Virus record (IMG/VR): IMGVR_UViG_3300012936_000039
Location: 1 to 42,885 of that record
Length of the DNA stretch: 42,885 bases
Strand: one strand, 5' to 3'
DNA from: a virus
Every line of letters begins with the position of its first letter. Within the stretch, counting starts at the first letter, position 1. The notes beneath the pieces were generated by a model. It had not been told where the DNA came from and did not search any database. It was given only the letters and a program-made list of their open reading frames with translations. Shown here piece by piece: positions 19,912 through 33,622 of the stretch. Both the position numbers and the translations under genes were made by a program.

Positions 19912-19942
19912 AAAGAGGACTCTCCTACGGTCCTCTTTTTTT
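19912..19942 (+). terminator. Intrinsic terminator after the 66-aa gene
   Basis: AAAGAGGAC-TCTCCTACG-GTCCTCTTT followed by a T-tract. It has the standard hairpin plus U-tract form. Confidence 0.85.
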
Positions 19943-19974: not shown

Positions 19975-20086
19975 ATGTTGACTTTATGTTGACTTTAAAA
20001 ACCTAACTAACTGATAATCAATACTAAATGTTAAAATGTTAACTTTCTTTATATACAGACAAGCGTTTAAATAATAATAATAAAAG
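19975..20086. repeat. Duplicated motif block, right copy (upstream of groEL)
   Basis: In the same order and orientation as at 8589-8683: ATGTTGACTTTATGTT (19975-19990), CTGATAATCA (20011-20020), ATGTTAACTTT (20036-20046) and an ATA-repeat tract ending TAAAAG (20068-20086). The 19943-20170 gap contains no gene; this block and the groEL promoter account for it. Confidence 0.6.
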
Positions 20087-20119: not shown

Positions 20120-20149
20120 TTGTGTATGTAGTTATTATTTATATCTTTG
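20120..20149 (+). promoter_or_regulatory. groEL promoter, textbook Bacteroidota type
   Basis: TTG (20120-20122), a 19-nt spacer, then TATCTTTG (20142-20149). Both elements and the spacing match the consensus for the Bacteroidota housekeeping sigma factor. The transcript start would be about 15 nt before the ATG at 20171. Confidence 0.75.
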
Positions 20150-20170: not shown

Positions 20171-21778
20171 ATGAATCAAGGATATTCGCCAAAGGACTTA
20201 GAGTTCGGCAAAGAGGGGAGAGACAAGCTCATCTCCGGCATCACAAAAATTTCTAAAGCAGTAAAGAGTACGTTAGGACCTATGGGTAACACTGTGCTCA
20301 TAGAGTCACCGGACCACACTCATGGCATTACGGTAACGAAAGACGGAGTAACAGTAGCGAAATCAATTAGTCTAATCGACCCTATTGAGAACCTTGCGGT
20401 TCGTATGATGAGGGAGGCGGCAGATAGGACAGCCACCTCAGCGGGTGATGGTACAACGACAGCGATAGTGTTAACAGAGGCACTTGTAAAAGCAGGTACT
20501 GAGATTATGAAGGACTGCAACAGGACAGAGGTTCTTCGTATGCTTGTAGAGAAAACGAAAGAGGTAGTAGAGGGTTTAAAGAAAATGTCAAAGAATGTAG
20601 ATTCTAAAACGCTTAGGGACGTTGCGATTATATCAGCGAACAACGACAAAAGCATCGGGGATACCATAGCAGACGTATACGAAAAAGTTGGCAAGGACGG
20701 TATTGTTACAGTTGAAAGGTCACAGACATCAGACACCTACTATGAGACTACCAATGGTATAAAGGTAGACAGGGGTTACATGACTGAACTGTTTGTAAAT
20801 GACCAACGAAAAGATGAGAGTGTCCTTGACGACACTTACATTATGGTGTCAGATGCAGAGGTTAATAACATCCTACAGATAGAGAATATTTTAAAACCAA
20901 TTATAAGCGAGAGGAAGAAGCTATTGATTATTGCGCCGTGTTCTACTCAAGTAGTTAATACTTTAGCTGCGAATGTAATGAAGAACAATTTAAAGTTATG
21001 TGCTATACAGCCGCCTAACTTCGGATACCGGCAGCATGAGTTGATGCAGGACATTGCTCTTAGTGTTGGTGCGACATACTTCTCTGAGAAGACAGGGGAT
21101 GACTTGAGTCTAATTGAATTTAGCGATTTGGGTCATGCTTCCAAGGTGATAGTTGGAAGGGACTCAACGGTCATCCTCAAGGATGATAACGAAGACAATG
21201 ATGAAACCATAAAGAAACGTGTTGAAGAACTAACTCATGCACATAGTCTTGCTAAGAAAAAAGCAGACAAGGAATTTATACTTTCTCGTATAGCCTCTCT
21301 AACAGGAGGTATAGGCGTCATCTATGTTGGTGGAAATACAGACCTTGAGCAGAAGGAACTGTATGACAGAGTAGATGATGCTGTGTGTGCAGTGCGTTCA
21401 GCATTGGAAGAAGGGATACTACCGGGTGCAGGTGTAGCTCTTTACGATGAGGGTAAGAGAATATTGTCAGATAACGATAGCGATATTTCGAGTTCGAAAA
21501 AAATTGCTTACGCAATTTTAGTTACGGCACTTGCTACTCCTATGATGCAAATACTACATAACGCAGGTCTTAGCAAGGATGATGTAGAAACTGATAAGAT
21601 TGGTGGCTCAATGGGTTACAATATAAAGACCGGTAAATTTGGAGACCTGTATAAGATGGGTGTCATTGACCCGTTGAAGGTAACCCGTAGTGCGTTGCAG
21701 AATGCAGTCAGTGTTGCGGTAACTATATTATCAACAGATGCCATTGTAACTATGGCACGCTCATACGAGAAAGAATGA
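20171..21778 (+). CDS. groEL: Phage GroEL-type chaperonin (Hsp60)
   Basis: The start is the ATG at 20171 (M-N-Q-G-Y-S-P-K), since the frame upstream overlaps the promoter. The 535-residue product has nearly the usual length of GroEL (about 545) and its signatures: STLGPMGNTV, TVTKDGVTVAKSI (ATP-binding), GDGTTTAIVL (catalytic Asp), EGILPGAGVAL and GVIDPLKVTRSAL near the end. The C-terminal Gly/Met-rich tail of host GroEL is absent. It would fold phage virion proteins with the cochaperonin encoded just downstream. Phage GroELs are uncommon but known in marine Bacteroidota phages and some jumbo phages. An internal GTGTC palindrome (20819-20836) lies in the coding sequence. Confidence 0.95.
   Translation: MNQGYSPKDLEFGKEGRDKLISGITKISKAVKSTLGPMGNTVLIESPDHTHGITVTKDGVTVAKSISLIDPIENLAVRMMREAADRTATSAGDGTTTAIVLTEALVKAGTEIMKDCNRTEVLRMLVEKTKEVVEGLKKMSKNVDSKTLRDVAIISANNDKSIGDTIADVYEKVGKDGIVTVERSQTSDTYYETTNGIKVDRGYMTELFVNDQRKDESVLDDTYIMVSDAEVNNILQIENILKPIISERKKLLIIAPCSTQVVNTLAANVMKNNLKLCAIQPPNFGYRQHELMQDIALSVGATYFSEKTGDDLSLIEFSDLGHASKVIVGRDSTVILKDDNEDNDETIKKRVEELTHAHSLAKKKADKEFILSRIASLTGGIGVIYVGGNTDLEQKELYDRVDDAVCAVRSALEEGILPGAGVALYDEGKRILSDNDSDISSSKKIAYAILVTALATPMMQILHNAGLSKDDVETDKIGGSMGYNIKTGKFGDLYKMGVIDPLKVTRSALQNAVSVAVTILSTDAIVTMARSYEKE
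20819..20836. repeat. GTGTC-N6-GACAC palindrome inside groEL
   Basis: AGTGTC-CTTGAC-GACACT, read in frame as S-V-L-D-D-T within the apical domain region. Confidence 0.75.
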
Positions 21779-21972
21779 GGGAAAGTATAATAAAGAAGCT
21801 TATTGATGCGTATCCTAATGATGCAGATTTAGGTAAAAGTATTCGTGAGCTGTATAAGAAGCGGTTGTATAATCGAAGAACAATTATACGCTATGCTTTG
21901 TGGGGTGGCCTGTTCTACCTAGGTGTGGTAGGAGTTATAATATTGTTGGTGTTATTAAAAAGATTTGGATGA
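21775..21972 (+). CDS. Small single-span membrane protein between groEL and groES
   Basis: The ATG overlaps the groEL stop (ATGA), and its stop overlaps the groES start in the same way. A charged N-terminal part (SIIKKLIDAYPNDADLGKSI) is followed by a hydrophobic span, GGLFYLGVVGVIILLVLL, and a basic C-terminus. Not recognised. Its insertion within a chaperonin operon is unusual. Confidence 0.65.
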   Translation: MRESIIKKLIDAYPNDADLGKSIRELYKKRLYNRRTIIRYALWGGLFYLGVVGVIILLVLLKRFG

Positions 21973-22226
21973 AACCTATTGGTAAATATATAATTGTAAG
22001 TTTAATAGAAGAGGAAGTAAAGACTGAATCCGGTTTGTTATTGTCTGCACAGGATGCAAGTGCGTTTAGGTATCACAAAGCTACAGTTGTAGAGTCGGGT
22101 ACTGATGTGTCTATAATAAATGAAGGAGACATAATATATTTTGATAAGCGTCAGTGCTACACAATGATGATTGAAGGTGAGCAGTACACCATCATTCAAG
22201 AGCGCGATGTCGTTGTTGTTTTATAA
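21969..22226 (+). CDS. groES: Phage GroES-type cochaperonin
   Basis: The ATG at 21969 gives 85 residues, about 10 fewer than host GroES. The family pattern is visible: GKYIIVSLIEEEVKTESGLLL (like R-V-L-V-x-x-x-x-E-x-x-x-S-G-L), a mobile-loop region SAQDASAFRYH, KATVVESGT (the G-x-V-x-x-V-G strand), INEGDIIYFDK and MIEGEQYTIIQERDVVVVL. It would cap the phage GroEL. Its last 35 nt overlap the convergent 22192-22629 gene. Confidence 0.85.
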   Translation: MKPIGKYIIVSLIEEEVKTESGLLLSAQDASAFRYHKATVVESGTDVSIINEGDIIYFDKRQCYTMMIEGEQYTIIQERDVVVVL

Positions 22227-22629
22227 ACGCGTTCATTTCCTTTATCATATTCCTGTACACCTTATCTGTGTATGACACTTTAGTCTTGAACATAGGATTC
22301 TTAGATGGTGAGGTTGGTATCTCCTCACCGTTTAACTTTTTGTACACAGAGTTCAACAATCTTTTAGACTTGAATGAAAGCTGATACAATGCTTTTCGTT
22401 TACCATCGTTCTTTCTAAAAACTTCTATCCAACCATCTCTCCTTAGTTTGTCAAAACGATTCACACTCCAACTCAGCAGTTCATCAAATTCATCAAACTT
22501 ATCCTTAGAAAAATAACCTTCTGTTTTTAAGAATAACAACATCTCAAGCTCTCCTTGAGTAATGTTGTATTTGGTTTTTACAAAGTAACGTACTACTCTC
22601 CAATACTTGAGATAATCATCAATAGGCAT
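22192..22629 (-). CDS. Winged-helix DNA-binding protein, MarR-like, 145 aa
   Basis: A leftward gene alone among rightward ones. The N-terminal 95 residues have a MarR/wHTH pattern: YNITQGELEMLLFLKTEGYFS, then RFDKLRRDGWIEVFRKNDGKRKALYQLS (recognition helix and beta-wing), and SFKSKRLLNSVYKKLNG. The rest is basic and helical. It probably regulates transcription. Its start lies 40 nt upstream and divergent from the 183-aa gene, so it may regulate that promoter. It overlaps the groES end by 35 nt. Confidence 0.6.
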   Translation of the reverse strand: MPIDDYLKYWRVVRYFVKTKYNITQGELEMLLFLKTEGYFSKDKFDEFDELLSWSVNRFDKLRRDGWIEVFRKNDGKRKALYQLSFKSKRLLNSVYKKLNGEEIPTSPSKNPMFKTKVSYTDKVYRNMIKEMNAFIKQQRHRALE

Positions 22630-22643
22630 AAATTAAATTTTAC

Positions 22644-22651
22644 TAACTTTG
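22644..22651 (+). promoter_or_regulatory. Rightward promoter -7 box (TAACTTTG)
   Basis: An exact TAnnTTTG match 19 nt before the ATG at 22670 of the 183-aa gene. It also lies just upstream of the divergent regulator. No clear TTG at -33. Confidence 0.55.
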
Positions 22652-22669
22652 TGTAAATATAGAAAAGTT

Positions 22670-23221
22670 ATGGCTAAAGACTATAATAGTTATTCATTTA
22701 GAAACAAAGCAGTTGACAATATTCAATCAAGGAGTAACACTGCTAACGACCCTACGGATAAAAAGAAAAAGAAAAAACGTGTAACGCGTACAACTAATCC
22801 GGACGGTTCTGTTACTAAGAGAAGAACAAAGCGAAGTGGTGATGTAGTTGTAAAAACTATAAGAAAGCCAACGCGTGCCAAGGCTACTCCAAAACCACAA
22901 GTAACTGAGACAAGAACAAAGGAGCAGAGAAAAAAGGAAACTGATATTCAGAATAAGGTTAGCCAAATGGTAGAGGATAAAGGTTTAATTACCGCACCTA
23001 CTGCAAAAGAAAAAAGAAAAATAAAAAGAACAAAAAGGCGCGTAGACAGACAGGTTATAAAAGCCTCAAAAGAAAAGTCTTCTAAACCAAAAACAAAAAA
23101 TAAACCAATAAGAAGAGGTTTTCAAAAAGGAGATGGAGGAACAAGAAGATACAATAATGCGATTCGAGGAGGAACCGGTGTGGGCAACATAAAAGGTGTA
23201 ACTCGAAAAAGAAAACTTTAA
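22670..23221 (+). CDS. Very basic protein, 183 aa
   Basis: The start MAKDYNSYSFRNKAVDN (22670) is dictated by the promoter. The protein is mostly Lys/Arg/Thr with no hydrophobic core: KKKKKRVTRTTNPDGSVTKR (about 30-49), then RRGFQKGDGGTRRYNN. Probably disordered and nucleic-acid-binding, as virion or DNA-condensing proteins of phages can be. The family is unknown. It is the first gene of a run of small basic proteins. Confidence 0.55.
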   Translation: MAKDYNSYSFRNKAVDNIQSRSNTANDPTDKKKKKKRVTRTTNPDGSVTKRRTKRSGDVVVKTIRKPTRAKATPKPQVTETRTKEQRKKETDIQNKVSQMVEDKGLITAPTAKEKRKIKRTKRRVDRQVIKASKEKSSKPKTKNKPIRRGFQKGDGGTRRYNNAIRGGTGVGNIKGVTRKRKL

Positions 23222-23222
23222 G

Positions 23223-23474
23223 ATGGCAGTAGCAAAGATAGAAAAAGAAAAGAAAGAAAAGAAAGAAAAGAAAGATGACAAGGACAAGGTTCCGTTCAAG
23301 AACAAGGTCATTGAGCGTCTTGAGCGTCTTGAGGATATGACTAAGGCTACTCGTGCAGAAAGGTTAGCAGAACGTAAGGCTAAAAAAGAAGCCAACAGGA
23401 AAAAACGTAGAGAAAGAAAGTCTCGTCCAAACATAAAAGGATTAGCAAAGTTTCAAGGATTTATGACTAAATAA
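23223..23474 (+). CDS. Lysine-rich small protein, 83 aa
   Basis: It begins MAVAKIEKEKKEKKEKKDDK, then a charged helix (NKVIERLERLEDMTKATRAER). Ends in a TAATG overlap with the next gene. Not recognised. The repeated Lys-Glu tract is low complexity. Confidence 0.5.
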   Translation: MAVAKIEKEKKEKKEKKDDKDKVPFKNKVIERLERLEDMTKATRAERLAERKAKKEANRKKRRERKSRPNIKGLAKFQGFMTK

Positions 23475-23641
23475 TGGCAAAGAGAGGCAGAGTAAAAAGT
23501 AAAGGCAACAAGATATGTCCTGCAGGCATAGCTTGGGCGAAGAGAACCTTCGACAAGTATCCAAGCGCGTATGCTAATCTTGCTGCAAGTAAATATTGCA
23601 AGGACCCTAATTACGCAAAAAAATCAAAAGGGAAAAAATAA
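23474..23641 (+). CDS. Small basic conserved phage protein, 55 aa
   Basis: MAKRGRVKSKGNKICPAGIA followed by WAKRTFDKYPSAYANLAASKY and CKDPNYAKKSKGKK. The pattern K-I-C-P-x-G...K-x-Y-P-S-A-Y-A-N...A-S-K-Y-C-K recurs in small virion-module proteins of marine phages, so it is likely structural or head-associated. Start and stop overlap the neighbours by TAATG. Confidence 0.6.
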   Translation: MAKRGRVKSKGNKICPAGIAWAKRTFDKYPSAYANLAASKYCKDPNYAKKSKGKK

Positions 23642-23757
23642 TGGATGCTAAAAAGTTAAAACAAATTTCAGCAGAGCTAAAGAAAGCATCTGCAATGCAC
23701 AAAGGTCAAGCTGCAAAAATTGACAAAATGCTTAAGTCATTAAAGAAAAAGAAATGA
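23641..23757 (+). CDS. Small lysine-rich protein, 38 aa
   Basis: MDAKKLKQISAELKKASAMH continues KGQAAKIDKMLKSLKKKK. It is a short amphipathic basic helix. It overlaps both neighbours (TAATG and ATGA) and so is a likely coupled cistron. Confidence 0.5.
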   Translation: MDAKKLKQISAELKKASAMHKGQAAKIDKMLKSLKKKK

Positions 23758-23873
23758 GTAAGTTAAGTAAAAAGCAAAGAAAGATTGCAAGAGCGGCAAT
23801 GCCGTTTAATAAGATTACTGCTCAAGATTTTAAAATTCTAAAACAAAGAAAAAATGCCAACAGTAAGTTATAG
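23754..23873 (+). CDS. Small basic protein, 39 aa
   Basis: MSKLSKKQRKIARAAMPFNK continues ITAQDFKILKQRKNANSKL. It has a conserved-looking RKIARAA...NKIT pattern. It overlaps the preceding stop by ATGA and the next gene by 20 nt. Not recognised. Confidence 0.5.
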   Translation: MSKLSKKQRKIARAAMPFNKITAQDFKILKQRKNANSKL

Positions 23874-24015
23874 TTGTCCGGACACCGGAAAGAAAATGCA
23901 AAAGAAGTTTGCTTACAACGCAGTGGGTAAGGCACAGGCTGCCGAGTTTGCCAAGTTGATGAAAGGGTCGTTGAAGAATAACCCTAACAAAAAAATGACT
24001 GAAACCGGTTATTAA
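23854..24015 (+). CDS. Small basic protein, 53 aa
   Basis: MPTVSYSCPDTGKKMQKKFA continues YNAVGKAQAAEFAKLMKG and ends KKMTETGY. It is in the same gene string as the surrounding small proteins, with a TAATG overlap to the next. Not recognised. Confidence 0.5.
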   Translation: MPTVSYSCPDTGKKMQKKFAYNAVGKAQAAEFAKLMKGSLKNNPNKKMTETGY

Positions 24016-24269
24016 TGGGTGAGCTCAAGAAATGGCTTGACGAAGATTGGGTCCGTATAGGAACTGATGGGTCTATCAAGGGGGCTTGTGGTACAAGCAA
24101 AAATAAAAAGAACCCCGATAGATGCTTACCTCGTAAGAAGGCTATGAGCATGACTAAAGCTGAGCGTGCAAGGACTGCAAGAAAAAAGAAGCGTGGAGGT
24201 AGAAGAGGTAAACAGTTTGTTGCTAATACCAAAGCGGGAAGAGTAACAAGAAAATACACCAAAAGATAA
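24015..24269 (+). CDS. Small basic conserved phage protein (DUF5872-like), 84 aa
   Basis: The N-terminus MGELKKWLDEDWVRIGTDG, then GACGTSKNKKNPDRCLP and a Lys/Arg/Gly-rich tail resemble small conserved proteins of marine phages (DUF5872-type, from memory). It may be a virion component. It overlaps the next gene by TAATG. Confidence 0.55.
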   Translation: MGELKKWLDEDWVRIGTDGSIKGACGTSKNKKNPDRCLPRKKAMSMTKAERARTARKKKRGGRRGKQFVANTKAGRVTRKYTKR

Positions 24270-24559
24270 TGGCTGATAAAAGCAGAATGAAGTGTAACAG
24301 GGTTGTCGCATCAGACAGACCCGGTAAGAAAAGAATGGTGAAAGCCTGTGAGGGTGGCAAGGAGAAGCTGATTCACTTTGGTGCTAAAGGTTATGGCCAC
24401 AACTATTCTGCTGCAGCACGTAAGTCATTCAAGGCACGCCACAAGTGTGGCACTGCAAAGTCAAAGCTCACTGCACGTTATTGGGCTTGTAAGAATCTAT
24501 GGGCAGGAAAAGGTGGAAGCACTAAGTCATCACCAAAAAATCGTCAAGGAAAATATTAG
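24269..24559 (+). CDS. Small basic conserved phage protein, 96 aa
   Basis: It holds KCNRVVASDRPGKKRMVKAC, HFGAKGYGHNYSAAARKSFK and ARHKCGTAKSKLTARYWACK, a Cys/Arg-rich pattern seen in small virion-module proteins of marine phages. The paired cysteines could bind zinc. The last gene of the coupled run, after which a promoter follows. Confidence 0.6.
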   Translation: MADKSRMKCNRVVASDRPGKKRMVKACEGGKEKLIHFGAKGYGHNYSAAARKSFKARHKCGTAKSKLTARYWACKNLWAGKGGSTKSSPKNRQGKY

Positions 24560-25336: not shown

Positions 25337-25813
25337 ATGGCTTATCAAAAATTACAAGTAAGTAGGGCGTTAGCGGTAATACCAAGTAATACTATAAACA
25401 TTCCAAATCCCGCAGTGCTATCAATCAGTAGTACAACAACAGGTGCTTCTGCAGGAAAACTTATAGATTCTTCTCAAGACTTTATAAGTGAAAAAGTAAA
25501 GATTGGAGACATTGTTTACTCGGGAACAACTGCAGCAACAGTAACTGCAGTGGATAGTGCGACTCAATTAAGTGTCAGTACAGGTATTATTTTAGGAGCA
25601 GATTATAAGCTTTTCAGTAATGACACCCCAAATAATGGATGTGTTTTGTACATAGGAGGAGCTGCTGCAGGAGTAGTAGATGTTGAAGTAGTAACAGCTG
25701 CAGGAGATGAGGTTACGTTTAAAAGTGTATCTATAGGTAGTTTTTTACCTGTTCAAGTGATACGACTTAAAGCCGGAACATCGGGTGGTGCAGACGTATT
25801 AGCATTGTGGTAG
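25337..25813 (+). CDS. Virion structural protein with beta-module, 158 aa
   Basis: Ser/Thr/Gly/Ala/Val-rich beta protein. Residues about 34-93 (GKLIDSSQDFISEKVKIGD, then ATVTAVDSATQLSVSTGI...YKLF) match a module in the connector-like protein at 39987-40934. The C-terminal half (GVVDVEVVTAAGDEVTFKSV) ends in a hydrophobic-aromatic tail (ADVLALW). Likely a virion decoration or neck component. Confidence 0.6.
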   Translation: MAYQKLQVSRALAVIPSNTINIPNPAVLSISSTTTGASAGKLIDSSQDFISEKVKIGDIVYSGTTAATVTAVDSATQLSVSTGIILGADYKLFSNDTPNNGCVLYIGGAAAGVVDVEVVTAAGDEVTFKSVSIGSFLPVQVIRLKAGTSGGADVLALW

Positions 25814-27897: not shown

Positions 27898-28572
27898 ATG
27901 GCAAAGGTATGTAGATGCTGTGGTCAAGAAATCAAAAGCGATTCCAAATATCTATGGATTCTTGATAATGGTCACGGTGGAATAATCGACGGAATTTATC
28001 AGACAGCAGGAAAACGAAGTCCTATTTGGGCAGATGGAACTCAGCTATTTGAAGGTGAGTTTAATCGTGCTATTGTAGATAGAATTTCAAAGTATTGTGA
28101 TGATAATAATATTGATTACATAAACTTGGTTAATACCAATGAAGATGTGCCTCTATCTACGAGAGTAAAGATGGCAAACGAGGTTTATCGTGAGTCAGAC
28201 AAGCCTTGTATATATGTAAGCATACACGCAAACGGATTTAGTGATGAGTCTGCAAATGGTTGGGAGGTGTATACATCCCCGGGAGAAACAAAGTCAGACC
28301 ATATAGCCACAGTTCTGTACGAAGAGGTAGAGAAAGAGTTTCCGGATTCTTATAACGAAAGCATTAAGTTGCGAAAAGACACAAGCGATGGTGATGTAGA
28401 CAAGGAGTCGAACTTCTATGTGCTTATACACACTGCTATGCCTGCTATATTATCAGAGAACTTTTTTATGACAAATGAAAAAGAATGTAAGACATATCTC
28501 TTGAGCGAGGAAGGTAGAGACCGTATTGCAAAGGCTCACATTGAAATGATAAATAAAATCGAGAACGAATGA
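27898..28572 (+). CDS. N-acetylmuramoyl-L-alanine amidase (Amidase_3), endolysin
   Basis: The zinc ligands and catalytic residues of the Amidase_3 family are visible: LDNGHGG (His), EGEFNRAIV (Glu), YVSIHANGF (His) and ILSENFFMTN (catalytic Glu). The N-terminus has CRCCGQEI, a short Cys motif (possibly a small zinc finger). It cuts the amide between muramic acid and the stem peptide to lyse the host. It has no signal peptide, so a holin is needed. The next gene supplies one; it overlaps by 4 nt. Confidence 0.9.
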   Translation: MAKVCRCCGQEIKSDSKYLWILDNGHGGIIDGIYQTAGKRSPIWADGTQLFEGEFNRAIVDRISKYCDDNNIDYINLVNTNEDVPLSTRVKMANEVYRESDKPCIYVSIHANGFSDESANGWEVYTSPGETKSDHIATVLYEEVEKEFPDSYNESIKLRKDTSDGDVDKESNFYVLIHTAMPAILSENFFMTNEKECKTYLLSEEGRDRIAKAHIEMINKIENE

Positions 28573-28964
28573 AAGAAATATTGACTAGACTATTTGGAAA
28601 GGGTTCGGGGGTTGTTGAGCAGGTCGGAGGGGTTGTAGACAAATTCATTAGAACTAAAGATGAGAAGGCTCAGTTCGAGAAGGAGATGGCAGAGATACTT
28701 ATCAATGCTGAGGCTGATATGCAAAAGAACGTCACCGAGAGGTGGAGGGCAGATATGACCTCAGACTCTTGGCTGTCAAAGAACGTACGGCCATTGGTTT
28801 TGATGTTCTTGGTTTTGTGCACGATGCTATTGATATTTATTGATGCGGGTCGACTTGATTTTAAGGTTGAAGCAAATTGGGTAGACCTACTACAGATTCT
28901 TTTACTTACTGTTATAGCAGCATATTTTGGTGGAAGAACGGTTGAGAAGACAAGAAAGAAATAA
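28569..28964 (+). CDS. Holin (3TM superfamily), 131 aa
   Basis: The N-terminal half is amphipathic (VVDKFIRTKDEKAQFEKEM), then two strong hydrophobic segments PLVLMFLVLCTMLLIFI and DLLQILLLTVIAAYFGG, with NVRPLV before them, as in phage Holin_3TM proteins. The C-terminus is basic. It would form the pore that lets the amidase reach the wall. The start overlaps the amidase stop (ATGA). Confidence 0.8.
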   Translation: MKEILTRLFGKGSGVVEQVGGVVDKFIRTKDEKAQFEKEMAEILINAEADMQKNVTERWRADMTSDSWLSKNVRPLVLMFLVLCTMLLIFIDAGRLDFKVEANWVDLLQILLLTVIAAYFGGRTVEKTRKK

Positions 28965-30332: not shown

Positions 30333-30560
30333 ATGGACGTTAGAAAAATATCAATAGGGACAGATTTTAAATCTTCAATGAACTACATAGTAGGGCAAGA
30401 AGTTTTAAATGGAAACTATGTGATACACCTAATAAAGTTCAATTCAAAAAATTCTTCATACAAGCTTTATATAGAAGAAGTAAATGGAGACGTAGTTGTT
30501 CTTTGGAAGGAGTTTAACTCTAACCTTCCTATAACAATAGAATACAATATAAACTTTTGA
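30333..30560 (+). CDS. Hypothetical protein, 75 aa
   Basis: The start MDVRKISIGTDFKSSMNYIV (30333) lies 11 nt after the fibre stop, rather than in the longer frame within the fibre gene. The product is beta-rich with charged strands (GNYVIHLIKFNSKNSSYKLY). Not recognised. Probably a virion or assembly protein. Confidence 0.5.
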   Translation: MDVRKISIGTDFKSSMNYIVGQEVLNGNYVIHLIKFNSKNSSYKLYIEEVNGDVVVLWKEFNSNLPITIEYNINF

Positions 30561-31120
30561 AATCACCAACTCAATTTATAGTTACACCATTCAAGGGGAA
30601 ACGCTACGAAAATACCAAAGACATAGGAGGTCTTGATTTAATAATAAGCACATCAGAAGAAGACCACAGGTTCTCAAATAGGTATGCTGAGGTATTATCA
30701 ACGCCACTTTACTACAATGGAGAAATAAAAAAAGGAGATACTCTTTTAGTTCATCACAATGTATTTAAGTTCTACAACGACATGAAGGGTAGAAGGCAAA
30801 GCGGAAAGAGTTTTTTAAAGGATGACATGTTTCTTGTAGACCCGGACCAATTTTATATGTACAAAAATGAAAATGGTTGGAACTCATACGATAGATATTG
30901 TTTTGTAAAGCCTGTTCCTACAAAGGAATCTTACATATTTAAACCTTTTACTGAAGAGCCATTGGTGGGGGAAATGAAATACCCAAATGACTACCTTTTA
31001 AGTAAAGGAGTAAAGGCAGGTGATAGGATTAGTTTTAAGCCGGAAAGCGAGTATGAGTTTACTGTAGATGGAGAAAAACTTTATAGGATGTATGACCATC
31101 AAATAACAATGCTAGTATGA
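30557..31120 (+). CDS. GroES-like structural/cochaperonin protein with TTG start, 187 aa
   Basis: The start is TTG at 30557, overlapping the previous TGA by 3 nt; no nearby in-frame ATG is available. The N-terminal part (FIVTPFKGKRYENTKDIGGL) and the end (YEFTVDGEKLYRMYDHQITMLV) read like GroES strands at the two ends of its barrel (a KxD/EGxEY-like turn and final D-I-x-x-V strand), with LLVHHNVFKFYNDMKG in between. The protein is twice the size of GroES, so two barrels or one with an insert are possible. This would be a second cochaperonin beside 21969-22226. The assignment is by pattern and tentative. Confidence 0.45.
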   Translation: MKSPTQFIVTPFKGKRYENTKDIGGLDLIISTSEEDHRFSNRYAEVLSTPLYYNGEIKKGDTLLVHHNVFKFYNDMKGRRQSGKSFLKDDMFLVDPDQFYMYKNENGWNSYDRYCFVKPVPTKESYIFKPFTEEPLVGEMKYPNDYLLSKGVKAGDRISFKPESEYEFTVDGEKLYRMYDHQITMLV

Positions 31121-31398
31121 CACCTACTGAACTAAAAGAAGATATTATAAAGGCAGGACGTATAGCTGTTCAACAGCTCATCAAGGTTGCCAAGGAGGAA
31201 ATTATCAGACACGACCCCGAAGACGAACTTGCAGCGGACAGATTAAAAAATGCTGCAGCCACAAAGAAGCTTGCTATCTTTGATGCTTTTGAAATCCTAA
31301 ACAGAATAGAGACGGAGAAAGAAGTGTTAGAGCTTAGTAAGAGTGGTAAGAATAATACGGATTCAAAACAAGGGTTTGCAGAAAGACACGCAGGATAA
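31117..31398 (+). CDS. Probable small terminase subunit, 93 aa
   Basis: Short, helical and basic-acidic (KEDIIKAGRIAVQQLIKVAK), directly upstream of and overlapping (56 nt) the large terminase gene, as small terminases do. Sequence similarity to a named family is not visible. It would recognise the packaging site. Confidence 0.5.
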   Translation: MTPTELKEDIIKAGRIAVQQLIKVAKEEIIRHDPEDELAADRLKNAAATKKLAIFDAFEILNRIETEKEVLELSKSGKNNTDSKQGFAERHAG

Positions 31399-33622
31399 TC
31401 TATACAGGGTCTTAGAAGATTATATCCCAAAGACTGTAATCACCAACAAAAACAATAGTGGAAGTTGGAAGTATGGTTATGACTCAAAATACGACGTGGT
31501 AGTAATATCAAAGACGGGTCAGATAGGAGAGGTGGTAAACATACAGGGTCTACCTATTGCTTTACCTAAATCACCTAAAGAGTGTCGTCAGCGACACTCA
31601 AAAAAATCAGAACAATATTGGGAGCGAGTTAATATACCTAAAGAACTGAATAAGATTCAATCTATATTTCAGTGGAATGAGCAACACGCTACCTTTAAGA
31701 ACAGATGGGTTGACTACATAGAAGAAGAGTTCAACAGAAGAGAAGAAGGTCATTGGTTTATGAACAATGGCAAGAAGACATATATAACAGGAGGGCACTA
31801 TATGTATCTTCAATGGACCAAGATTGATGTTGGATATCCGGACTACAGAGAAGCGAATAGAATACTATATATATTTTGGGAAGCATGTAAAGCAGATAGC
31901 CGAAGCTTTGGAATGGACTACCTTAAAATACGTCGTTCCGGTTTTTCTTATATGGGCTCAGAGGAATGTGCAAATATAGGAACAATATCCAAGGATTCAA
32001 GGATAGGTATACTTTCTAAAACAGGAGCAGATGCTAAAAAAATGTTTACGGATAAGGTTGTTCCTGTCGTAAACAACTATCCATTTTTCTTTAAGCCTAT
32101 TCAAGACGGTATGGATAAACCTAAAACAGAATTAGCGTTTAGGATTCCTGCCTCTAAGATTACAAAAAAGAATATGTATGATGTCTCTGATGATGAGATG
32201 CAGGGTCTTGATACGACAATAGATTGGAAGAATACAGATGACAACAGTTATGATGGTGAGAAGTTGTTGTTGTTGATACACGATGAAAGCGGTAAATGGA
32301 TTAAACCAAACAACATACTTAATAATTGGCGTGTAACAAAAACTTGTTTGCGTTTGGGTAGTAAGATTATAGGCAAGTGTATGATGGGCTCCACTTCAAA
32401 TGCTTTAGCGAAAGGTGGTGGCAACTTTAAAAAGCTTTACGAAGACTCAATGCTTACGACACGAAACGCCAATGGTCAGACAAAGAGTGGAATGTATTCT
32501 TTGTTTATTCCTATGGAATGGAATATGGAAGGGTTTATTGACAGATACGGTATGCCGGTATTTAGGAAGCCTCCTGTTCCTGTGTTAGGTGTAGACGGAG
32601 AGATGATTTCAAACGGGGCTATTGATTATTGGGAAGCTGAGGTTGAGTCATTAAAAAATGATGCAGATGCTCTTAACGAGTTTTATCGTCAGTTTCCACG
32701 CACAGAGTCACACGCATTTAGAGACGAGAGTAAAGAGTCTTTGTTTAACTTAACAAAAATATATCAACAAATAGACTATAATGACTCCATGATAAAAGAG
32801 CATCATATAACAAGGGGTTCTTTTCATTGGAGAGACGGCATAAAAGATAGCGATGTAATATTTAGCCCGGATTCGAGAGGAAGATTTAAGGTTTCTTGGA
32901 CACCTCGTAAGGGACTTAATAATCGAGTTGAGGTTAAGAATGGAGTTAAGTATCCGGGAAATGAACATATTGGTGCATTCGGATGTGACTCCTATGACAT
33001 ATCCGGAGTAGTAGGCGGAGGAGGTTCTAATGGTGCTCTTCACGGCCTAACTAAGTTTAGTATGGAAGACGCTCCTTCTAATGAGTTTTTTCTTGAATAC
33101 GTAGCACGACCACAGACTGCAGAAATATTTTATGAAGAAGTTTTAATGGCATGTGTATTTTACGGTATGCCTATACTTATAGAAAATAACAAGCCTAGAC
33201 TTTTATATCATTTTAAAAACAGAGGGTATAGAGGCTTTTGCATGAACAGACCCGACAAAACGTATAACAAGCTGTCTAAGACAGAAAGAGAGCTAGGGGG
33301 TATACCTAACACAAGTGAAGATGTAAAACAAGCACACGCGGCTGCTATTGAATCTTACATAGAAAAATATGTCGGTATGGATATGGATGGAACTTTCAGA
33401 GAAAATGACATAATGGGTACTATGCCGTTTGTTAGAACCCTTGAAGATTGGGCTAAATTTGATATAAACAATAGAACTAAGTATGATGCCTCTATTAGTT
33501 CGGGGCTTGCAATAATGGCGTGTCAGAAACATCTATACACTCCACAGAAAAAAGAGTCAAAAATAAAGATTAACTTTGCAAGGTATAGTAACACAGGAAC
33601 ATTAAGTGAGATAATCAGATGA
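31343..33622 (+). CDS. terL: Large terminase subunit (ATPase-nuclease)
   Basis: The start is GTG at 31343 (V-V-R-I-I-R), within the preceding gene. The 759-residue protein shows a Walker A-like IRRSGFSYMGSEE (about 196-208, variant of the classical form), Walker B LLLIHDESGKW (about 308-318), a GSTSN coupling motif, and an RNase H-like nuclease with Asp in GAFGCDSYDISG (about 549), ILIENNKP (about 611) and NRTKYDASIS (about 713). It cuts concatemers and pumps DNA into the prohead. Length and motifs agree with terminases of marine Bacteroidota phages. The palindrome at 31581-31598 lies inside, read as CRQRHS. Confidence 0.9.
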   Translation: MVRIIRIQNKGLQKDTQDNLYRVLEDYIPKTVITNKNNSGSWKYGYDSKYDVVVISKTGQIGEVVNIQGLPIALPKSPKECRQRHSKKSEQYWERVNIPKELNKIQSIFQWNEQHATFKNRWVDYIEEEFNRREEGHWFMNNGKKTYITGGHYMYLQWTKIDVGYPDYREANRILYIFWEACKADSRSFGMDYLKIRRSGFSYMGSEECANIGTISKDSRIGILSKTGADAKKMFTDKVVPVVNNYPFFFKPIQDGMDKPKTELAFRIPASKITKKNMYDVSDDEMQGLDTTIDWKNTDDNSYDGEKLLLLIHDESGKWIKPNNILNNWRVTKTCLRLGSKIIGKCMMGSTSNALAKGGGNFKKLYEDSMLTTRNANGQTKSGMYSLFIPMEWNMEGFIDRYGMPVFRKPPVPVLGVDGEMISNGAIDYWEAEVESLKNDADALNEFYRQFPRTESHAFRDESKESLFNLTKIYQQIDYNDSMIKEHHITRGSFHWRDGIKDSDVIFSPDSRGRFKVSWTPRKGLNNRVEVKNGVKYPGNEHIGAFGCDSYDISGVVGGGGSNGALHGLTKFSMEDAPSNEFFLEYVARPQTAEIFYEEVLMACVFYGMPILIENNKPRLLYHFKNRGYRGFCMNRPDKTYNKLSKTERELGGIPNTSEDVKQAHAAAIESYIEKYVGMDMDGTFRENDIMGTMPFVRTLEDWAKFDINNRTKYDASISSGLAIMACQKHLYTPQKKESKIKINFARYSNTGTLSEIIR
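31581..31598. repeat. GTGTC-N6-GACAC palindrome inside terL
   Basis: AGTGTC-GTCAGC-GACACT. It is read in a different frame (E-C-R-Q-R-H-S) from the other coding copies, so DNA or RNA sequence, not protein sequence, is what is shared. Confidence 0.75.

Follow-up and report, generated by a model that had tools for sequence, protein, structure and literature searches.

The locus described here raises the question of whether a small membrane-protein gene placed between phage groEL and groES is a working part of the chaperonin, and whether that chaperonin belongs to the phage or was borrowed from a host. The window, by which we mean the whole stretch of DNA analysed, comes from IMG/VR as a viral contig 42,885 bases long; in it, groEL is followed by a gene that we call M and then by groES (Table 1). 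An ATGA is common to the groEL stop and the M start, and likewise to the M stop and the groES start; the order groEL-M-groES is reversed relative to the bacterial groES-groEL. A preliminary description of this DNA had proposed an overlapping operon of these genes, a nearly full-length groEL with intact motifs and an inverted order compared with the host, and our analysis bears out all three: the three open reading frames (ORFs) and both ATGA junctions were confirmed, GroEL matches PF00118 with its ATP-site residues kept, and groEL precedes groES. The same three-gene arrangement is repeated in an independent contig (L024), with protein identities to the window of 99% for groEL, 98% for M and 100% for groES, and is thus not an assembly error. 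The L024 slot also holds an extra 22-aa membrane-like ORF ahead of M that is absent from the window. We conclude that the operon is real and old, and, judged from sequence, that groEL and groES are probably functional.

Table 1. Coordinates of the chaperonin genes and associated elements in the window.
Feature	Position	Strand	Description
Intrinsic-terminator-like hairpin	19912..19938	+	Upstream of the operon; 10 pairs followed by a T run; consensus match only
-7 promoter element, Bacteroidota-type	20142..20149	+	TATCTTTG; starts 29 nt ahead of the groEL start codon
groEL	20171..21778	+	535 aa; ATG start at 20171; group I chaperonin, phage lineage
M	21775..21972	+	65 aa; one predicted C-terminal membrane helix; N-terminal YPND-LG-IR module and basic stretch
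groES	21969..22226	+	85-aa co-chaperonin; ATG at 21969
Second co-chaperonin, tandem Cpn10 (PHROG_13932)	30557..31120	+	187 aa

The GroEL protein matches the chaperonin groEL family PHROG_5725 over residues 8-530 (E 2.7e-134) and Pfam PF00118 with 192.7 bits against a cut-off of 34.3, indicating full-length Cpn60 homology. The preliminary description had proposed checking its origin by phylogeny with host chaperonins. In our quick maximum-likelihood tree of 109 GroELs, 58 representatives of the phage family (a set in which L020-L022 and L024-L026 were exempt from thinning) make up one side of a branch with an SH-aLRT of 100 and a length of 1.74. Because the outgroup phage branches are long, the point at which this GroEL family joins the others is unsure. 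The closest bacterial GroEL is 41% identical, among the best 80 of at least 593 stretches found. This single deep phage branch contradicts a recent host origin, and the sequence comparisons indicate that groEL is an old phage lineage. One contig recorded as ‘Acinetobacter phage MD-2021a’ (L110, CAKLQF020000019.1) carries groES-groEL beside dgkA, ytnP and glpQ; on the tree its GroEL groups with bacterial sequences, and it seems to be a piece of host DNA.

Residues were compared over 85 phage GroELs, that of the window included, leaving out the short rows L018, L029, L043 and L062. Positions are given in the E. coli GroEL numbering and were carried over through an Acinetobacter GroEL reference with motifs at 30, 52, 87, 398 and 495. 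The ATP-site residues T30, L31, G32, P33, D52, D87, G88, T89-T91, D398 and D495, which cover the LGP loop and the GDGTTT motif, are intact in 85/85 phage proteins. At the apical sites, L234 is replaced by Glu and V264 by Ala in every one of the 85, V263 has become Ala in 82 and Ser in three, and Y203 is Leu or Met in 85/85; F204 and L237 are kept throughout, and Y199 in 72/85. The GroELs from 40 of the 80 bacterial loci have Leu, Ile or Val at 234, Val or Leu at 264, Val or Ile at 263 and Tyr or His at 203. The GGM tail is found in 0/85 phage GroELs (last 12 residues) versus 70 of all 80 bacterial rows (last 20 residues). PMC7289027 describes the role of the apical sites in contact with substrate and GroES; L234 is a GroES contact in E. 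coli. The apical changes and the lost GGM tail suggest an altered specificity for clients or for the lid. The replacement of L234 by Glu could reflect a weakened interaction with GroES or substrate, so that a working GroEL-GroES cycle is not certain.

The full length of groEL and its intact ATP site would also suit a gene recently taken from a host and able to replace host GroEL. This explanation has to contend with the deep phage branch, the low identity to the best bacterial match, and an apical face that is rebuilt and a GGM tail that is missing in all 85 proteins, and we consider it exceedingly improbable.

Upstream of the operon, a conserved promoter element points to the likely host. The promoter count began from the 76 loci that have a recognised start preceded by 100 nt or more of sequence; L003 and L004, two other phages without the motif TAnnTTTG, were set aside. 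In 73 of the remaining 74 family loci this motif occurs within 80 nt upstream of groEL (L014 is the only miss), and across the family it starts 24-64 nt before the gene; in seven control windows, placed both ahead of groEL and within it, only 0 to 6 of 69-75 loci have it. The stricter TAHHTTTG is found upstream of groEL in 74/75, a count that adds one locus with less upstream sequence. An element of the TAnnTTTG type is the -7 consensus of sigma-ABfr, as given in PMC6847099, and its conservation indicates that the host is probably a member of the Bacteroidota. The ‘textbook host promoter’ of the preliminary description therefore holds in so far as a promoter is likely; the E. coli-type site is not clearly above chance expectation, and the conserved site is the Bacteroidota -7 element. 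That sigma-70-like candidate, TTGACT-18-GATAAT at 19989-20018, has 10/12 consensus matches, and was rejected because the window contains 16 such sites versus 10.7 +/- 3.3 in shuffles, not clearly more than chance. No exact match to the consensus of the CIRCE element was found anywhere in the window.

We sampled relatives as 104 sequences (L001-L103 and the window), of which 98 were left after removal of six repeated contigs. Our search finds both genes in 91, near-identical contigs being counted separately; L003 and L004 have groEL only, and L068, L072, L090, L095 and L098 groES only. L003 is scored in this way, yet an annotated groES precedes its groEL. The two genes share a strand, with groEL first, in 91/91 sequences that have both. 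Conservation of the three-gene order, which had been proposed as a check, thus holds for groEL followed by groES; the middle gene is not general, as M's family occupies 10/91 loci. Chaperonin genes in marine Bacteroidota phages, either GroEL or GroEL with GroES, are a kind of system already known (PMC5332604 and PMC11590407). A gene between phage groEL and groES was not found as a topic in titles and abstract openings, a search that covers subscription journals little.

The space between the two genes is highly variable. Of the 91 loci, 17 have a spacing of at most 4 nt (exactly -4 in 14), another 20 have one of 30-130 nt, and in the other 54 it exceeds 130 nt. A simple script found 93 ORFs in this slot, which fall into 25 families unlinked at E 1e-3, M's included. 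On the tree of 58, slot content changes at least 35 times and emptiness at least 10 times. By eye, the slot proteins include zinc-ribbon-like, PhoH-like, GIY-YIG-like and HNH-like proteins and short membrane-like peptides, and one occupant is an amphipathic peptide of ~30 aa running into groES. A strong PHROG match was obtained for two of the seven slot proteins scanned (PHROG_13182 and PHROG_8676, both of function unknown); families missing from these scans or from the structure comparison below, each made with a single library, are not evidence of a new family or fold. Membrane-like proteins account for 7/25 slot families (M's included) versus 11 of 60 small annotated genes from five phage records (Fisher p 0.39), a share that neither shows nor excludes a mild bias in the slot. 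Two further observations concern slot occupants. L020, L021, L024 and L025 have an extra membrane-like ORF of 22-26 aa before M, with an ATGA overlap with the groEL stop, and a 218-aa protein that is PhoH-like by eye lies in the slot of L052, L053, L054, L066, L080, L085, L092, L094 and L097.

M itself has one strong hydrophobic stretch at about residues 42-61. We found no Pfam or PHROG match at E <=1 and no homologues in named phages at E <=10; the version of M in L051 has three weak Aeromonas phage matches (E ~1). Pairwise dN/dS is 0.05-0.34 in 27/28 pairs (one was not computable), and M is thus a real, constrained protein under purifying selection. The structural model (mean pLDDT 75.6, pTM 0.38) consists of a short helix at residues 2-12, a turn at PND and a long helix at 17-64 that ends in the hydrophobic stretch. 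In membrane proteins, topology follows the positive-inside rule, and the net charge of +6 over the first 41 residues of M makes a cytosolic N-terminus likely, with M predicted to insert into the membrane.

M's family comprises eight loci with a membrane helix (the window, L018, L020, L021, L022, L024, L025 and L026) and two without it (L007 and L051), and L032 carries a related motif. The direct groEL-M overlap is kept in 4/8 of the helix loci, and so is the M-groES overlap in 4/8. The helix-bearing form requires two changes on the tree, which fits a single gain together with loss in L007. The N-terminal YPND..LG..IR module was found in viral contigs at 23 loci. Ten of these lie between groEL and groES, namely seven known M loci and L287-L289, in which the module is at the groEL stop without a helix. 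The other 13 (L290-L302) are different small phage proteins, with the module around locus position 2500 (~435 in L293), and no Pfam or PHROG assignment of known function covers the module in them. For 11 of the 13, neither groEL nor groES is matched within the sequence examined, which reached at most 2.5 kb to each side; L291 and L292 each show a partial groEL-like ORF ~1.8 kb upstream and lack a groES match. The module therefore does not mark chaperonin loci as such, although the groEL-groES slot often contains it.

These distributions bear on the proposal that M acts as a tether holding the phage chaperonin at the inner membrane, so that membrane-bound phage proteins could be folded or inserted there. 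In its favour, M overlaps tightly with both neighbours in the window, is under purifying selection, and joins a basic N-terminal part to one C-terminal hydrophobic helix; the preliminary description had likewise suggested that the membrane protein may localise chaperonin activity. We find no support for this. The slot has no gap in 17/91 loci and turns over fast, M's family is confined to 10/91 loci and lacks the helix in two of them, the module has no nearby groEL or groES match in 11/23 module loci, and each overlap persists in only half of the helix loci. The distribution of M leads us to reject it as a partner of phage chaperonins in general, and we consider a tether improbable. Two findings had been named beforehand as counting against the earlier proposal: relatives that lack the middle gene do exist, whereas the tree contradicts recent acquisition of groEL from a host. 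M is real, but local and exchangeable; given the purifying selection and both overlaps, it may still serve some purpose alongside the chaperonin within this sublineage.

Small single-span phage membrane proteins can also suggest lysis, and M was considered as a holin-like protein. The window encodes an endolysin at 27898-28572 (PHROG_435, E 2.2e-32) followed by a holin at 28569-28964 (PHROG_3427, E 1.2e-26), and M's family is missing from 81/91 loci. With its lysis genes at 27898-28964 and no Pfam or PHROG match for M, we rejected M as a holin, and a lysis function is very improbable. Alternatively, M may be a host-takeover or exclusion protein that acts on the host envelope and is merely co-expressed with the chaperonin, which is a specific form of the passenger reading. 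M behaves as an exchangeable accessory gene, and unlinked membrane-like families occur in the same slot (the 7/25 above), as such a protein would predict; no homologue of known function was found, and we regard this version as tentative and on the unlikely side.

The lid side of the system includes more than one candidate. GroES matches PF00166 over residues 2-84 (43.7 bits, cut-off 21.1) and Thermus Cpn10 (E 4.1e-10). The second co-chaperonin lies one small gene (31117-31398) upstream of the terminase large subunit (31343-33622). It matches PHROG_13932 ‘co-chaperonin GroES’ over residues 1-180 (E 7.7e-23); with Pfam Cpn10 it reaches 14.9 bits, below the 21.1 cut-off, and its best PDB sequence match has E 0.26. 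Its structural model (pLDDT 74.7, pTM 0.73, with residues 75-85 and 130-132 under 50) has Cpn20 chain 7ekq_R as best structural match (Foldseek E 5.9e-4; Z 9.9 over residues 1-187, VIA), and single-Cpn10 structures match just its C-terminal half. The protein is thus predicted to have the fold of two Cpn10 units. Cpn20, a chloroplast tandem co-chaperonin, is 12% identical to it, with an rmsd of 4.6. A 158-aa protein at 25337-25813 was considered as a third GroES and rejected (Pfam E 0.056, PHROG E 0.025); by eye it is surface- or structural-like.

Relatives of the tandem Cpn10 are 69-99% identical in the best 80 of at least 595, and the gene is present in 30/30 long groEL-bearing records, which were chosen by the analyst. 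Approached from the other side, 14 records from the 80 reached through the tandem Cpn10 include six that also have groEL; above 53 kb, records reached in this way have groEL in 6/7, two of the seven being already in the groEL set. The records with a tandem Cpn10 and no groEL may be fragments. In one 62-kb record (G016, the record of L077), tandem Cpn10 matches lie near opposite ends, at 2432-2989 (67%) and 61739-62293 (66%), which could mean two separate genes or reflect an end effect. Elemovirus, Calle and Maribacter phage Panino have related genes that carry the annotation cpn10 or GroES, and PMC8776804 gives chaperonin cpn10 as a Pervagoviridae core protein, which of the two cpn10 not being said there. 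The tandem Cpn10 gene itself is thus known; the interest lies in its pairing with a rebuilt GroEL.

Named phages share much of this organisation. The nearest by groEL is MW202828.1, Podoviridae sp. ctfjg026 (Manatee Spring, 60.8 kb), whose groEL is 61% identical and is followed by groES on the same strand. Like the window, it has a tandem Cpn10 upstream of the terminase; unlike the window, it has no middle gene, and the gap is 4 nt. Elemovirus (the isolated Flavobacterium phages elemo, ~60 kb, with Flavobacterium sp. BAL314 as host) also has groEL then groES on one strand, and its long Cpn10, annotated ‘chaperonin cpn10’, is 35.7% identical to the tandem Cpn10 of the window; its groEL, however, is just 35.7% identical, and its groEL and groES overlap by 1 nt without a middle gene. 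Callevirus (Cellulophaga phage Calle_1, Pervagoviridae) has a phage groEL and two cpn10 genes, a small one and another next to the terminase, but in a different order (cpn10, a 90-aa gene, groEL), and the Calle middle protein is unlike M by eye. The more distant phage immuto has groES then groEL, opposite to the window. Among the marine Bacteroidetes ‘group 2’ viral genomes described in PMC5332604, 36 carry GroEL, related to Cellulophaga phage homologues; the likeness to the window is the presence of GroEL.

The operon is flanked by other small genes. A gene on the minus strand at 22192-22629 converges on groES and overlaps its 3' end by 35 nt; it matches PHROG_17028 (function unknown, E 8.1e-15) and, weakly, PHROG_12817 (phage transcriptional regulator, E 8.7e-05). 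At the equivalent place in MW202828.1 lies a gene for a ‘repressor protein’, which likewise converges on groES. Between the groEL operon and the virion genes, a run of small, mostly very basic proteins is encoded at 22649-24559. Their Pfam matches are weak; the protein at 24015-24269 matches PHROG_23735 (function unknown, E 9.1e-24), and for that at 24269-24559 the matching family is PHROG_220 ‘minor head protein and DNA pilot’ (E 4e-17).

Given the analyses presented above, we favour, with a probability of about 0.62, a phage-dedicated chaperonin with M as a co-transcribed passenger. The phage, a marine one, would be podovirus-like and probably infects Bacteroidota. A host-type (sigma-ABfr) promoter would give one transcript, on which translation of groEL, M and groES would be coupled. 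GroEL would hydrolyse ATP and, with the phage GroES as lid, fold phage proteins, probably virion proteins. Its apical face, rebuilt with Glu at 234 and Ala-Ala at 263-264, is probably tuned to phage clients and lids and not a host copy, and the tandem Cpn10 near the terminase is probably a second lid for the assembly phase. M would be made alongside the chaperonin and would be no part of it, with no tie to GroEL, as the current occupant of a slot in which small genes are gained and lost. A bolder possibility, which we hold to be doubtful, is a private chaperonin that has left the E. coli binding rule and is closed by either the small GroES or the tandem Cpn10 of the virion genes; if so, the choice of lid would set whether the chamber serves early clients or those of the assembly phase.

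Because the slot that holds the middle gene changes fast, the locus is a caution that function is unsafe to read from a neighbouring gene. In this large marine phage family the ATP site is intact, yet a residue that contacts GroES and substrate in E. coli has been replaced in 85/85 GroELs, and two separate co-chaperonins are kept in the long genomes checked. The clients and the lid of a phage chaperonin are thereby a question that can be tested directly on a few soluble proteins, and experiments would be best directed at the apical change and at the two lids.
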